In this document: positions 2,847 through 24,350 of the stretch, in pieces
Position numbering within the stretch: the stretch's first letter is position 1
How the letters are laid out: the number at the start of each line of letters is the position of its first letter
Assembly (NCBI RefSeq): GCF_003614945.1
Contig: NZ_QYCZ01000001.1
Location: 1,444,001-1,508,000 of the forward strand
Direction of reading: 5' to 3'
Origin: Bergeyella cardium
GTDB taxonomy: Bacteria; Bacteroidota; Bacteroidia; Flavobacteriales; Weeksellaceae
Length of the DNA stretch: 64,000 bases
Notes under the pieces: generated by a model
Seen by the model: the letters and a program-made list of their open reading frames with translations, nothing else
The model's database searches: none
What the model was told of the DNA's origin: nothing
Program-made: the position numbers and the translations under genes

Positions 2847-3992
2847 ATGCAAGATTTTAAAGCAGGGAAGTATATCAATCAAGGATATTATAAAAGTTTT
2901 CAACCTGAGCTCATCAACCGTAATTGGTTGCTTAATGATATGGAGATTATATCTCTATTAAGTAAAGCAGATATTGAACTCGGCCGTTTAGATATGTATT
3001 CTAAATATGTTAATATTGATATGTTTATACAAATGCATATTACAAAAGAGGCTACGCAATCTTCTAAAATTGAGGGAACTCAAACCAATATAGAGGAGGC
3101 ATTCTTAAAAAAAGAAGAAATATTAATAGAACGAAGAGATGATTGGGAAGAAGTACAAAACTACATCTCTGCGATGAAAGAAGCAGTAAAACTCCTACAC
3201 ACCTTTCCTTTTTCCTCTCGTTTAATAAAGCAAACCCATAAAATTCTATTACAAGGAGTAAGAGGCGAGCATAAACTACCTGGAGAATACAGAAGCAGTC
3301 AAAACTGGATAGGAGGTGCTACGCTTAATGATGCTGTATTCATCCCCCCAGCAACTTCCAGCTTATCTGACTTAATGTCTGATTTGGAAAAATTTGCTAA
3401 TGATGAATTTAATCAACTCCCCATTCTAATAAAAACAGCCATCATCCATTATCAATTCGAAACCATCCACCCCTTTTTAGATGGTAATGGCAGAGTAGGA
3501 AGATTATTAATTACACTCTACTTAGTGATCTGTGGCATTCTGGAACAGCCTATTTTATACCTATCTGACTTCTTTGAAAAGAACAGAATGCTCTACTACG
3601 ATAACCTAATGCGAGTAAGAACTCATAATGACTTGAAACAATGGTTAAAATTCTTTCTCACAGGTGTAATAGAAACTTCAAAAAAAGGAATAAGAACCTT
3701 TGATGATATTCTTCAACTACAAAAATCAACAGAAGATAAAATAAAAATATTAGGAACTAAAAGTTCATATGCACTGAAACTGCTTACCTATATGTATGAA
3801 AAACCTGTTATAGATGCCACCACAGCAGCAGCCGTTATTGAAAAAACAAGCGTAACCGCTTACAAACTAATAGAAAATTTAGAAACCTTAGGTATTCTTA
3901 CTGAAATTACAAGAGCGACAAGAGGAAAACTCTACATCTTTAAAGACTATATTGACCTCTTTCAAGAAAGAAGTAAAGGTAGAGATTTTTAG
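2847..3992 (+). CDS. Fic family protein (AMPylator), class II, with C-terminal winged helix
   Basis: Fic-domain enzyme that transfers AMP (or another nucleotide moiety) to protein hydroxyls. The core motif HPFLDGNGRVGR begins at His208 and holds the catalytic His and the phosphate-binding Asn-Gly-Asn-Gly-Arg. An N-terminal inhibitory helix motif SSKIEG (residues 72-77) fits the (S/T)xxxE(G/N) pattern of autoinhibited class II Fic proteins. The last ~80 residues resemble a winged helix-turn-helix, common in bacterial Fic proteins of ~370 residues. The operator-like repeats at its promoter suggest autoregulation, which is inference. No antitoxin gene is adjacent, in line with intramolecular inhibition. 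Confidence 0.9.
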   Translation: MQDFKAGKYINQGYYKSFQPELINRNWLLNDMEIISLLSKADIELGRLDMYSKYVNIDMFIQMHITKEATQSSKIEGTQTNIEEAFLKKEEILIERRDDWEEVQNYISAMKEAVKLLHTFPFSSRLIKQTHKILLQGVRGEHKLPGEYRSSQNWIGGATLNDAVFIPPATSSLSDLMSDLEKFANDEFNQLPILIKTAIIHYQFETIHPFLDGNGRVGRLLITLYLVICGILEQPILYLSDFFEKNRMLYYDNLMRVRTHNDLKQWLKFFLTGVIETSKKGIRTFDDILQLQKSTEDKIKILGTKSSYALKLLTYMYEKPVIDATTAAAVIEKTSVTAYKLIENLETLGILTEITRATRGKLYIFKDYIDLFQERSKGRDF

Positions 3993-7185: not shown

Positions 7186-8901
7186 TTACGAAATATGATT
7201 TAAAATTGATTTCAAACGGATATGTATCTCTAAAATATTATCTTTTAAAGGAATTGGCCTGTATTTCTCATGCTGTATTCTTTGCAATAATTCCTGATAA
7301 TCCTTAAAAAATTCATTCTTTTGCTCGCTAATATATAAAGCCAAATCAGTATAACCTCCCTTTTGATATTTTTTATCTAAATCTGAGAGCAGTGGCTCCA
7401 CATTCTCCAAATAAGCGGTATAATTTTCATCTTTAATCAACCTATCGAGGTCATCAAGGGTAAATGCTGGATCGGCGAGCTGCTCATCTCTCAATTTCTT
7501 TTCTATATCGGAGATGTTTTCCTCTTTTTCAGCAGGGGGCTGTGGCTTGCTCTTCCCTTTTCTTAGAAAGATAAGGGCTACTGCTAATATCCCGAAACTA
7601 CTTATAATAAACGCCAGATTATCCCAAAGAGCATCGAGGAAAGTTTTTTCTATTTCCTTTTTATCGGTCTTTAAGATGGGGATATTTACATTATCTATAA
7701 TCTTATCGGTATAGTCATTTACCTTATCCAGAGCTGTTTTTTGCTCATTTACTTGCTGCTAGGTAAGGATATTATAGCTTATGGCCTTTGCTCCTAAATC
7801 TATATACCTCTCCTTTTCTGGACTGAAATAAGAAAACTCTGAGGTATGCACTTCTATACGCCCTGCCTGTGTAGGAACCACTACATAATCTGCCTCTATA
7901 CTCCCCGAAACGCTTTCAGAAGTGGTTTTTATATTTTGCCTAATCTTCGGAGGGAATACCTTATACTGCTCCGTTTCTTTTATAACTGGCAGAAGTTTTT
8001 TGGTGAGATTGCCCTCCCCTTTTAGTTTCACTGTAATATTTATCGGTTTACCTACTTCTATATTCTGCTCCTTCTGAGGGCTTGTAATTTCTATTTTAAA
8101 TTCTCCCACTGCATTTTTAAAACTCAATGGGCTCTCAGCAGGAAGCCTCTTCACTCTTAGGTCAGCACCATTAGATTTTATCCTTTCGGTTTCCACACTT
8201 GCCATTATCGGGTCTATCATAATCAGCCCTGCCTCTTCGGGGAAGAGAAGATACACCGCAACCGTCTGCGAAGCTACTTGTGAATACCTGTCAAGCTCTA
8301 TATCTGAACGCGAAAAGCTCACGGGGAAAAATTCTACATTCTTCTGCCTCGGTTGGATAATATTTTTAAACTTCCTCAAGCTGTTAAAATCCCTGCTATA
8401 CGCCTTTAAAACTGCCTTTACAGGCTGGAAAGGATAGACTTCTCTATCCTCAACCTCCATATTGAGATAGACTTCTGCAGAGGGGAGCCTGTTTACCGCT
8501 CGCTCAGGAGATTTAATATCCGCTACACTGATTTCAAAAGGCTCGGTTTTATAGACTTTACCATTTACCTTTACCAGTGCGGAACCTATCTTTAGATTCC
8601 CTGAATTTTTCGGTTGGAGGATGATCTGATAAACCATCTGAGAGATTGCTGTATTGGTTACCGGATCAAATACACTATTCTTACTCGAGCCTGACCCTCT
8701 TTCGTAGAACTGAGAGAAATCCGGTAGTCTAATGGGCGTTTCCTGCACCATATCTGCTCCGTTGATTTCAAGTGTTACGGTAAGCTCTATCAAATCTTTG
8801 GTAGTATATTCCCTCTTATTGGTAAGCAATTCTATATTTACCTGAGCATAAGACTGCACAGAGCACCATAATAAAACGATATATAAAAGTCTATTGCTCA
8901 T
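7186..8901 (-). pseudogene. batD: BatD-like protein interrupted by an in-frame TAG
   Basis: The aerotolerance protein BatD is a periplasmic Ig-like protein anchored by a C-terminal membrane helix. The reading begins at an ATG overlapping the batC stop (TAATG). It has a signal peptide (SNRLLYIVLLWCSVQSYA) and beta-rich repeats, and stops at TAG 7759-7761. The same frame then stays open for 190 further codons, containing the expected membrane helix (LAFIISSFGILAVALIFL) and a cytoplasmic tail, and ends at 7186. No ATG restarts the second part, only a TTG at 7494. The intact product would be ~570 aa. The cause is a single nonsense change, not an indel. The visible product (380 aa) would lack its anchor. 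Confidence 0.85.
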
Positions 8902-9629
8902 TACCAATCTTTCTCATTGCTTTGGGGAACGGAGTAAGTATTTTTATTAAGGATTTTTCTTGCGGTTTCCTGCTCCCTGCTTTTCACTCTTTCGAGCAGG
9001 GCATCTTCTAAGTCTTTCGGCATTCGCTCTCCGTCGTTTTTGCCTTTGTTTTGTTTTTGATCAGTGTTGCCATCATTTCCTTGCTGGTTTTGGTCTTTAC
9101 CTTTCGGGGGCTTCCCATTGTTCTCATCTTTGGGGGTGTTATTCTGATCTTTTTGTTGTTGATTTTTATCCTGCTGATTTTGGTTCTGCTGGCTCTGCTG
9201 ATTCTCCTTATCTTTCAGTTTTGCGATTTCGTAATTCTTTCTCACCTTTTCATTATAGGGATCATTTTTCAGTGCTTTTTTGTAGTATTTAGCGGCTTTT
9301 GCAGGGTTTCCAGATTGCATATAGGCATTCCCGAGGTTATAATGGGCTGCCATTTTATCCTGCTTTGTTTTGGCATTTGCTTCTGCTTTTTTGTATTCAG
9401 CCATTGCCTCGTCATACTTTTTCCCCTTATACAAGGCATTCCCAAGGTTATAATGAGCCGAAAAGTCTTTCTCCTTTTGCTTTACTGCCTGCATAAACTT
9501 GGCCGATGCCTCATCATAATTTTCCTTCTCAAAAGCTCTATTTCCTTCAAATATCGAAGTCTTATACCGCTCCTGAGCCGTAGCAAAAAACACAAAAAAC
9601 ACTAGTAAAGAATAAATTTTTCGCATCAT
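8901..9629 (-). CDS. batC: BatC-type TPR protein
   Basis: Exported tetratricopeptide-repeat protein of the Bacteroides aerotolerance (Bat) cluster. The start MMRKIYSLLVFFVFFATAQ gives a signal peptide and lies 14 nt after a TACTTTTG box; in-frame codons further upstream lack such support. Three TPR units follow: NRAFEKENYDEASAKFMQAV, then HYNLGNALYKGKKYDEAMAEY and HYNLGNAYMQSGNPAKAAKYY. The C-terminal third is a low-complexity Q/N/K linker. The stop codon overlaps the batD start. Unlike common flavobacterial loci, no batA/batB precede it; the upstream sequence is the palindrome array. Confidence 0.8.
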   Translation of the reverse strand: MMRKIYSLLVFFVFFATAQERYKTSIFEGNRAFEKENYDEASAKFMQAVKQKEKDFSAHYNLGNALYKGKKYDEAMAEYKKAEANAKTKQDKMAAHYNLGNAYMQSGNPAKAAKYYKKALKNDPYNEKVRKNYEIAKLKDKENQQSQQNQNQQDKNQQQKDQNNTPKDENNGKPPKGKDQNQQGNDGNTDQKQNKGKNDGERMPKDLEDALLERVKSREQETARKILNKNTYSVPQSNEKDW

Positions 9630-9643
9630 CTCATTTCCAATGG

Positions 9644-9651: not shown

Positions 9652-9753
9652 TTTGTTTTAATGTTAAAAGAAGTTTTACAATCTGTTAAATTTCGGTTAA
9701 AAGCAGCACACCGTAGCCGGTGAGGCACTTAGGCGGTAGGCGATAGACGGCGG

Positions 9754-9982
9754 TTTTTTTTAGCGAATAATTATTTTAATGATGAAAAAAAAACTTTTAT
9801 GCGTCGGTTAAATCACTGATGAAAAAAAATATTTGTGCGTCGGTTAAATAACCGACGGCTGCCAATGAATAATTTTAACTTTCGGTTAAATAACCGACGG
9901 TCGCCAATGAATAATTTTAACTTTCGGTTAAATAACCGACGGTCGCCAATGAATAATTTTAACTTTCGGTTAAATAACCACT
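9754..9982. repeat. Palindrome array A (core CGGTTAAATAACCG)
   Basis: After a T-rich header (9754-9790), CGGTTA cores begin at 9805, 9841, 9883, 9925 and 9967, i.e. spacings of 36, 42, 42 and 42 bp. From 9841 on the core is the inverted repeat CGGTTA-AA-TAACCG, and the 9967 copy loses its last bases. The units between cores are nearly identical (ATGAATAATTTTAACTTT framework). It lies between divergent batC and gpmI. No gene is seen in it. Confidence 0.85.
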
Positions 9983-10005
9983 AAACGATAAGCAACAAGC
10001 AGCAA

Positions 10006-10232
10006 TTTTTTTTAGCAAATAATTATTTTAATGATAAGAAAAAAATAAATTTTCCTTTCACTATTTAGTGAATGGAAAAAAAAATTTTTGCTTCCACTAA
10101 TTAGTGAATGGCAGAAAATGAACAAAAACGAGCTTTCACTAATTAGTGAATAGTAGAAAATGAATAAAAACGAGCTTTCACTAATTAGTGAAAAGTAGAA
10201 AACAAACAAAAGCGAGCTTCCACTAAGCTGAA
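10006..10232. repeat. Palindrome array B (core TTCACTAATTAGTGAA), sister of array A
   Basis: It starts with the same T8-AGC(A/G)AATAATTATTTTAA header as array A, exactly 252 bp (6 x 42) downstream. CACT cores begin at 10059, 10095, 10137, 10179 and 10221, spacings 36, 42, 42 and 42, the same as array A. The middle cores are perfect 16-bp palindromes; the last is a half-site. Framework CTTTC...ATGAATAA is shared with A, but the palindrome is a different sequence. Confidence 0.85.
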
Positions 10233-23261: not shown

Positions 23262-24310
23262 CAAAACAAATATTTTTAATTTAATTACTTTTGTGGATAT
23301 CACACAGCATCCATTCCCATAGAGTAACCAAACAGGGCGTTGTGAATTGCTTTCAATTTGATTAGTTTTGTGGATATCACACAGCAGCATATAGCTCCAC
23401 ACATTAGCGCCTTTAGTTGTGAATTGCTTTCAATTTGATTACTTTTGTGGATATCACACAGCCCAACCCTTTTAATGAGATTAGAAATTTAAGTTGTGAA
23501 TTGCTTTCAATTTGATTACTTTTGTGGATATCACACAGCTCAAATAGGTAGAATTGAAGAACCTACTTTGTTGTGAATTGCTTTCAATTTGATTACTTTT
23601 GTGGATATCACACAGCATTGGAAATGTTTGGAATTTCTTATACCATGTTGTGAATTGCTTTCAATTTGATTACTTTTGTGGATATCACACAGCTTATTCC
23701 TAGTACTCGGTAGAGGTACCGGTAGTTGTGAATTGCTTTCAATTTGATTACTTTTGTGGATATCACACAGCTGTATCTGAGTACTGGGCAATATCCCCCT
23801 AGTTGTGAATTGCTTTCAATTTGATTACTTTTGTGGATATCACACAGCGGTGTCTCTGGAAAAGAATATAGCGCACCAGTTGTGAATTGCTTTCAATTTG
23901 ATTACTTTTGTGGATATCACACAGCCAGGGGCTGTATTTAAATCGCTATAATGTTGTTGTGAATTGCTTTCAATTTGATTACTTTTGTGGATATCACACA
24001 GCAACAAATATGCTCATACTCTAAAAATAATAGTTGTGAATTGCTTTCAATTTGATTACTTTTGTGGATATCACACAGCATATAGTTGTTATTAGTGTTT
24101 TCTTGTATAGTTGTGAATTGCTTTCAATTTGATTACTTTTGTGGATATCACACAGCGGTGCAATTTACATCACCATTGGGCAGGGGGTTGTGAATTGCTT
24201 TCAATTTGATTACTTTTGTGGATATCACACAGCGTTTTGAAAGTTTATGCTAACAAATTAGCAGTTGTGAATTGCTTTCAATTTGATTACTTTTGTGGAT
24301 ATCACACAGC
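23262..24310 (+). CRISPR. Type II-C CRISPR array, 14 repeats, 13 spacers
   Basis: Repeats of 47 bp begin GTTGTGAATTGCTTTCAATT and end GGATATCACACAGC. They start at 23262 (degenerate), 23339, 23416, 23493, 23570, 23647, 23725, 23802, 23879, 23956, 24033, 24110, 24187 and 24264. Spacers are 30 bp, except the sixth (31 bp, 23694-23724). The first repeat has lost similarity in its first 16 nt. The second has one change (C to G at repeat position 27). The strand follows from pairing of repeat nt 1-25 with the tracrRNA anti-repeat. Nt 2-4 (TTG) and 25-32 (TACTTTTG), 20 nt apart, form a promoter within each unit. The array converges on cas2. Confidence 0.98.
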
Positions 24311-24313
24311 CTC

Positions 24314-24350
24314 AAAATAAAAACCTTTGTTAATCAAAGGTTTTTATTTT
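24314..24350. terminator. Bidirectional terminator between CRISPR array and cas2
   Basis: A perfect 16-bp stem (24314-24329 with 24335-24350, 5-nt loop) with A-rich left and T-rich right ends. It can terminate both the array transcript (plus) and the cas9-cas1-cas2 transcript (minus). Confidence 0.85.

Follow-up and report, generated by a model that had tools for sequence, protein, structure and literature searches.

Two palindrome arrays in Bergeyella cardium as putative orphan copies of a DNA site linked to DUF6261 genes

Two arrays of one layout between divergent genes

The window, the 64,000-nucleotide stretch of Bergeyella cardium DNA analysed here, carries at 9754–10232 two arrays of palindromic cores, A and B, which have the same layout and different palindromes. 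As an earlier sequence-only reading had stated, the arrays are non-coding: they are intergenic, lie between divergent genes and contain no gene. The features of the locus are the following (cores are given without strand).

8901–9631, minus strand: gene for a TPR-repeat protein, divergent flank, likely start at 9631
9754–9793, plus strand: T/A-rich header of array A, TTTTTTTTAGCGAATAATTATTTTAATGATGAAAAAAAAA, from the header comparison with B
9805–9818: array A unit 1, incomplete or hybrid core CGGTTAAATCACTG, then an A/T-rich 36-bp first spacing
9841–9854: array A complete core CGGTTAAATAACCG
9883–9896: array A complete core CGGTTAAATAACCG
9925–9938: array A complete core CGGTTAAATAACCG
9967–9980: array A final core, truncated, CGGTTAAATAACCACTAA
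10006–10045, plus strand: T/A-rich header of array B
10059–10070: array B header core CACTATTTAGTG; the next core is 36 bp and an A/T run away
10095–10106: array B core CACTAATTAGTG
10137–10148: array B core CACTAATTAGTG
10179–10190: array B core CACTAATTAGTG
10221–10232: array B final core, partial, CACTAAGCTGAA
10368–11897, plus strand: gpmI-like phosphoglycerate mutase gene, flank, named from sequence by inference

Half-cores start at 9805, 9841, 9883, 9925 and 9967 in array A and at 10059, 10095, 10137, 10179 and 10221 in array B, which matches exactly the spacing of 36, 42, 42 and 42 bp previously read in both. The common header also held up, since positions 9734–9793 and 9986–10045, 252 bp apart, are identical at 48 of 60 sites, far above shuffled sequences (18.5 ± 3.4, maximum 31 in 5000 shuffles). 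The palindromes do differ as described: all three complete cores of A are CGGTTAAATAACCG, and B runs in order through CACTATTTAGTG in the header unit, three perfect copies of CACTAATTAGTG and a partial CACTAAGCTG. The edge units of A, first and last, are truncated or hybrid (CGGTTAAATCACTGA and CGGTTAAATAACCACTAA), and the hybrids at its start (CGGTTAAATCACTGA) and end (AACCACTAA) fit a common descent of the two arrays from a single array type. TRF detected both arrays, and the promoter-like element of gpmI, TAACTTTG, sits between array B and gpmI, outside the array.

The framework said to be common to the two arrays survived only in part. In register, the 28-bp spacers of A and B agree at 16 of 28 positions, the best of all rotations (shuffle P ~0.0006), but the flanks of the B cores vary. 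Thus ATGAATAA, supposed to come after each core, follows one B core only, the others being followed by ATGAACAA or CAAACAA, and in place of a constant CTTTC before each core, CTTT precedes some B cores and CTTC the others. The spacers recur too, those of A being nearly identical to one another and those of B similar, so a CRISPR array, defined by identical repeats with unique spacers, was rejected for this locus. At another place in the window (23339–24316), 47-bp repeats GTTGTGAATTGCTTTCAATTTGATTACTTTTGTGGATATCACACAGC with spacers of ~30 bp and a period of 77 have the look of a type II-C CRISPR array.

Tandem arrays upstream of DUF6261 genes

The core CACTAATTAGTG occurs 11 times in the 1.96-Mb genome, always within one of four arrays (at 367.7k, 786k, 1422k and in the window), and a sequence search found array-related DNA at the same places. 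The header unit of array B is also present in the B-type arrays at 367.7k and 786k of the same contig (G000:C1). The 786k array lies directly upstream of a gene for a 237-aa protein (G000:C1:786304-787017; MKKLLTTARITEVGD...), assigned by Pfam to DUF6261 (PF19775), and in a Bergeyella zoohelcum MAG a diverged array (CACTATTTAGTG) precedes the homologue of this gene. Array B shares its core with the array upstream of the 786k gene and thereby meets the adjacency and same-core test for the array family, and the 42-bp tandem period of both A and B meets the 41/42-bp test applied to DUF6261-linked arrays. The other three B-type arrays (367.7k, 1422k and the window) have no DUF6261 gene. For array A, the core pair was found only in the window, with no second copy in this genome or its 147 relatives (148 family genomes); no DUF6261 gene paired with it emerged from that search of the genome and its 147 relatives for the A core, and viral contigs did not contain the pattern. 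Both window arrays are orphans. The likeness of the A spacers to those of B suggests, as far as sequence can tell, that A may come from the same array lineage after a specificity switch.

Orphan copies accompany other gene-linked arrays as well. At 174k, the array in front of the DUF6261 gene (L082 type, G000:C1:174.0k-174.6k) is the longest in the genome, with about ten nearly identical 41-bp units (ATTCGCGTGAATCTTG...), and has three extra copies at 384k, 469k and 1355k; L089-type arrays have extra copies in B. zoohelcum. The long array and the DUF6261 gene behind it sit within a mosaic of other short intergenic repeats. One short repeat, GCACACCGTAGCCGGTGAGGCAC, present in more than a dozen genome copies, adjoins array A (window 9708–9733) and also abuts several L082-type orphan arrays.

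To define the family, a protein was counted as DUF6261 when its Pfam profile score exceeded the gathering cut-off of 27 bits; the proteins of L010:2805-3515 and L023, for example, score 68.1 and 84.7 bits. The family is patchy, found in 45 of 148 family genomes, often as several genes per genome (four in B. cardium), and in 6 of 296 genomes of a phylum-wide sample. Because that sample was too sparse, the independent test set was made up of the remaining DUF6261 genes of the family together with two distant genomes. We scanned 450 bp upstream of each gene for a tandem period against shuffles. In the first set, a significant period was detected for 39 of 59 genes (37 in an initial run with fewer shuffles), and every one was 41 or 42; in the independent set, 15 of 20 genes had a period of 41/42 and one had a period of 55. 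Over both sets, 54 of 79 DUF6261 genes have a 41/42-bp array within 450 bp upstream, while the far-upstream, downstream and gene-body controls yielded no such period in either set. In the remaining 25, about a third, no array of this period was detectable.

The same rule is followed by arrays that are unrelated in sequence, in Capnocytophaga catalasegens (CGGACATTTGTCCG), Labilibacter sediminis (TTACGATATCGTAA), several Treponema and B. zoohelcum (TTCACTGCAGTGAA). A length of 41–42 bp corresponds to four turns of B-DNA. Since 41 cannot be divided by three and the arrays share no sequence, selection is the simplest explanation for the period itself. In the absence of binding data, the persistence of this period across unrelated arrays gives comparative support to the earlier suggestion of a phased protein-binding array. 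At 2684–2779, directly upstream of a Fic-like gene (2847–3992), the window contains one more tandem array of 41 bp, in which the palindromic words are CTTAATTAAG; it has the period of the DUF6261 arrays beside another gene family and may be a parallel case or act as the Fic gene's operator.

Each array has its own palindrome, built of two ~5-bp arms around an even-centred gap of ~4 bp, and palindromes are about 3.5-fold enriched in the arrays over shuffles. Dyad gaps of 0, 2, 4 and 6 are enriched (z 2.5, 8.8, 11.0 and 5.2), most strongly at 4, and gaps of 1, 3 and 5 are at background; a gap of 13 is also enriched (z 5.3), without explanation. Among small gaps, this restriction to even values is what a protein with two-fold symmetry would require of duplex DNA, its half-sites of ~5 bp being separated by one turn. 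Direct reading of the arrays shows that palindromes of two kinds alternate at 21-bp intervals in some subfamilies.

At one edge of the gene-linked arrays, a promoter-like TAnnTTTG element was found in 16 of 55 cases against 4.4 ± 2.0 expected, an excess that fits autoregulation. Among the genes flanking DUF6261 none is conserved and no ParA/ParM-like NTPase was recognised. With no conserved neighbour, the gene and its array look like a stand-alone module and not like a classical partition or toxin-antitoxin operon. NCBIfam holds no name for DUF6261, the literature searched mentions it barely (the name appears once), and nothing relevant on phased palindrome arrays in these bacteria was found there. 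One subfamily member gave no match in plasmid and phage collections. On one IMG/VR contig (L159:5001-5702), a DUF6261 gene with a TTCACTGCAGTGAA-like array stands beside Dam-methylase-like and phage-end-like genes, a setting which indicates that the module can ride on a prophage.

Covariation of array core and DUF6261 N-terminus

The comparison of proteins with their arrays by residue window was limited to pairs of >60% identity, where arrays are comparable. In a scan of 8-column windows that controlled for the remainder of the protein, residues 1–8 were the window most strongly associated with array similarity (partial r 0.45, against 0.29 for the 95th percentile of windows and 0.35 for the best window elsewhere). 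Only columns 4, 6 and 7 stand out within the N-terminus (r 0.28, 0.41 and 0.29, against a background 95% value of 0.17 and maximum of 0.30), and columns 9–40 are near zero. Columns 3, 5 and 8 are hydrophobic (83, 94 and 96%), and the core-tracking columns 4, 6 and 7 are variable and mostly non-hydrophobic. Over all pairs, a partial Mantel test gave a weak value of 0.06–0.07, far above permutations of the N-termini within clusters (null −0.17 ± 0.03), none of 2000 of which reached it; permutation was kept within clusters because pairs are not independent. Most of the weight in these statistics comes from two large subfamilies, MKIxLxxLSTKDLATL and MNxI[DE]LxxLRNAEYL. In the RITEVGD subfamily, which pairs with array B, the register of the N-terminal alignment is less clear than in the two larger ones.

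Individual correspondences can be listed. Residues S/V/R at positions 4/6/7 go with core TGCA, T/S/K with AAAAC..GTTTT, T/A/R with ATAC..GTAT, D/(P or T)/K with TCGGG..CCCGA and (D or E)/(R or Q)/(L or M) with TCCGG..CCGGA. The proteins L110 and L114, the clearest such pair, are 95% identical outside the N-terminus, where they read DLRML and DLTKL, and their cores are TCCGG..CCGGA and TCGGG..CCCGA, respectively. L122 and L137, 90% identical, have different arrays, whereas L137 and L124, only 75% identical, have the same array and a common N-terminus, MKISLVRL; among close relatives, then, the array does not follow overall protein similarity. Paralogues within one genome mostly differ in their N-termini. 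The earlier proposal of a repeat family in which the core is swapped as one piece gains comparative support from the way the core varies with specificity-like residues in the neighbouring DUF6261 protein. From the window alone, neither the partner gene family nor the orphan status of both arrays nor the residues matching each core can be seen.

An AF2 monomer model of DUF6261 (pLDDT 91) is an all-helical bundle in which residues 1–9 are extended and helices span 10–26 and 34–85; the isolated N-terminal 59 residues fold as a helix at low confidence, which is uninformative. Foldseek against PDB and BFVD returned nothing under E 0.001, a comparison with PDB sequences gave one insignificant hit, and the best VIA-align Z, 10.7 to helical bundles of the pectin methylesterase inhibitor type, is in the range expected of any helical bundle. 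No ribbon-helix-helix protein appeared in either the Foldseek or the VIA-align list. The median pI of DUF6261 proteins is 7.7, and many of them lack a basic character. Because the extended-helix-helix order and the residue pattern resemble ribbon-helix-helix (RHH) proteins, the modelled N-terminus is possibly RHH-like, which we put forward as a hypothesis and not as family membership. RHH proteins are intertwined dimers of a strand-helix-helix fold, and the model covers a monomer. In RelB, S3, D5 and R7 contact bases, and I4, L6 and I8 form the hydrophobic core (PMC2812701). DUF6261 would share with such autorepressors (RelB, Arc, MetJ, CopG) a short N-terminal strand of alternating contact and hydrophobic residues followed by helices, and palindromic operators next to its own promoter. 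It differs from them in its ~230 residues with a long helical bundle, in the lack of a sequence or fold match and of a toxin partner, and in operator arrays that are far longer and keep to a 41/42-bp period. If positions 6 and 7 made contacts while 8 was buried, the pattern would not be the strict alternation of RHH proteins, and the N-terminal strand is only inferred.

A putative module and competing explanations

We consider it probable, without DNA-binding data, that both window arrays are orphan copies of a cognate DNA site which belongs to a module made up of a DUF6261 protein and its upstream palindrome array. What was established is the association of array and gene, the fixed period, the dyad geometry, the covariation of core and N-terminus and the orphan copies; all of this evidence is comparative, and DNA binding, cooperativity and purpose are inferred from it. 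Palindromes 41–42 bp, or four helical turns, apart would all face one side of the DNA. A DUF6261 dimer would read each palindrome through its N-terminal segment, by residues 4, 6 and 7 of an amphipathic, strand-like MKIxLxxL, and dimers may bind the array cooperatively, with the helical remainder of the protein holding neighbours together. The gene-linked array beside the promoter would probably autoregulate the DUF6261 gene, orphan arrays would be secondary binding sites, and paralogues would avoid cross-reaction by keeping different cores. Change of the core throughout an array could come about if units are homogenised, by unequal exchange or conversion, and if array and reader must change together, so that a core swap would follow a change in reader specificity.

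Array B (CACTAATTAGTG) is most likely read by the DUF6261 protein encoded at G000:C1:786304-787017, for which no binding data exist, and array A (CGGTTAAATAACCG) may go back to a different DUF6261 specificity, the gene for which is either absent or has escaped recognition. Any purpose given to the arrays, be it autoregulation or a centromere-like complex, is an inference. A broader proposal, that DUF6261 and its array form a previously undescribed stand-alone, centromere-like or selfish module, in which three N-terminal residues and the whole array switch together, many insulated specificities exist per genome and the window arrays record one switch, is offered only tentatively. A family of unknown function would gain a testable job, sequence-specific DNA binding, and the many natural protein/site pairs would make a three-residue recognition code readable. 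Such sets are rare and would be useful for studying the evolution of DNA specificity and for the design of insulated regulators. Why one bacterium keeps several insulated, rapidly changing DNA-binding modules is a question that this raises.

The alternative that fares best differs on purpose and not on DNA binding as such. It holds that DUF6261 spreads on or bridges gene-linked and orphan arrays, organising or clustering DNA as SopB/ParB_F does on sopC, with cores comparable to incompatibility groups. The sopC site of the F plasmid consists of twelve repeats of 43 bp, in each of which a ParB_F dimer binds a 16-bp inverted repeat (PMC9178275), and this architecture is very close to that of the DUF6261 arrays, with tandem units of near-equal length, an inverted repeat per unit and an array that adjoins the gene of its binder. 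The mostly different N-termini of paralogues in one genome and the scatter of orphan arrays over the chromosome agree with such a role, but no ParA/ParM-like NTPase or conserved neighbour stands beside DUF6261, the one subfamily member searched had no match in plasmid or phage collections, and the distribution is patchy (45 of 148 family genomes). We regard this explanation as possible, though rather doubtful. Moreover, DUF6261 is not ParB by any profile match, its array lies upstream and differs in sequence between most genes, and orphan arrays are found on chromosomes. By our analysis sopC is the closest known arrangement, by likeness of layout and not by descent. Plasmid partition systems (ParB/parS, ParR/parC), which require a neighbouring NTPase gene, were rejected as a class for DUF6261, the flanking genes of which are not conserved.

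Physical linkage could also make the N-terminus follow the array without reading it, if arrays and the 5' ends of DUF6261 genes recombine together. Judging from the sequences, arrays and 5' gene ends are indeed transferred together to some extent: substitutions are clustered in the first codons of L110/L114 and L124/L127, two close pairs, and array type also correlates with the 30 bp that precede the ATG (partial r 0.40). Silent sites of codons 1–10, however, track the array no more than background while amino acids 4, 6 and 7 do, so the amino-acid signal does not come from linkage alone. Residues 11–30 do not track the array either (0.06), and linkage would leave the fixed 41/42 period across phyla without explanation; as a full account we find it improbable.

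The structured repeat RNA that had been considered, in which transcribed hairpin arrays would be recognised by shape, was not supported and seems more improbable still. Whichever strand is taken, arrays A and B do fold better than shuffled sequences (z −3.4 to −4.8), palindromes are kept while their sequence changes, and some promoters lie 5' of the array, which would place it in a leader. Any palindrome array, however, folds well and equally on both strands, and mismatches gave no clear G·U excess on one strand (GT 14, AC 10). At hairpin-sized loops only even gaps are enriched, although a hairpin loop would tolerate gaps of 3 and 5, and no loop motif was seen. The fixed 41–42 period between unrelated arrays fits the helical phasing of DNA, and a search of Rfam gave no match above any gathering score, only two sub-threshold chance hits.

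Simple satellite drift, named at the outset as the refuting case, or a mobile repeat of the non-autonomous, REP/MITE-like kind that is unconnected to any binding protein can be dismissed as scarcely credible, since the period and dyad geometry stay constant without sequence conservation, the arrays covary with the protein, no terminal repeats were seen and RAYT adjacency is confined to 3 loci, even though the copies are dispersed between genes, arrays abut other short repeats and RAYT-like transposase genes lie near three DUF6261 genes. REP elements with RAYT resemble the putative DUF6261 module in combining one gene-linked repeat set with dispersed orphan palindromic copies, but DUF6261 lacks a transposase signature, and its arrays show strict helical phasing and no strand-asymmetric REP features. 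A REP/RAYT system, which has a Y1, IS200-like transposase gene, was ruled out for DUF6261, which matches no transposase family. The RAYT/IS200-like transposase genes themselves (YTHKNPVEAGFV...KYSSARNY) are found 0.4–1 kb upstream of DUF6261 at L128, L130 and L138, with REP-like GCTGGCGCGAGC words near them.
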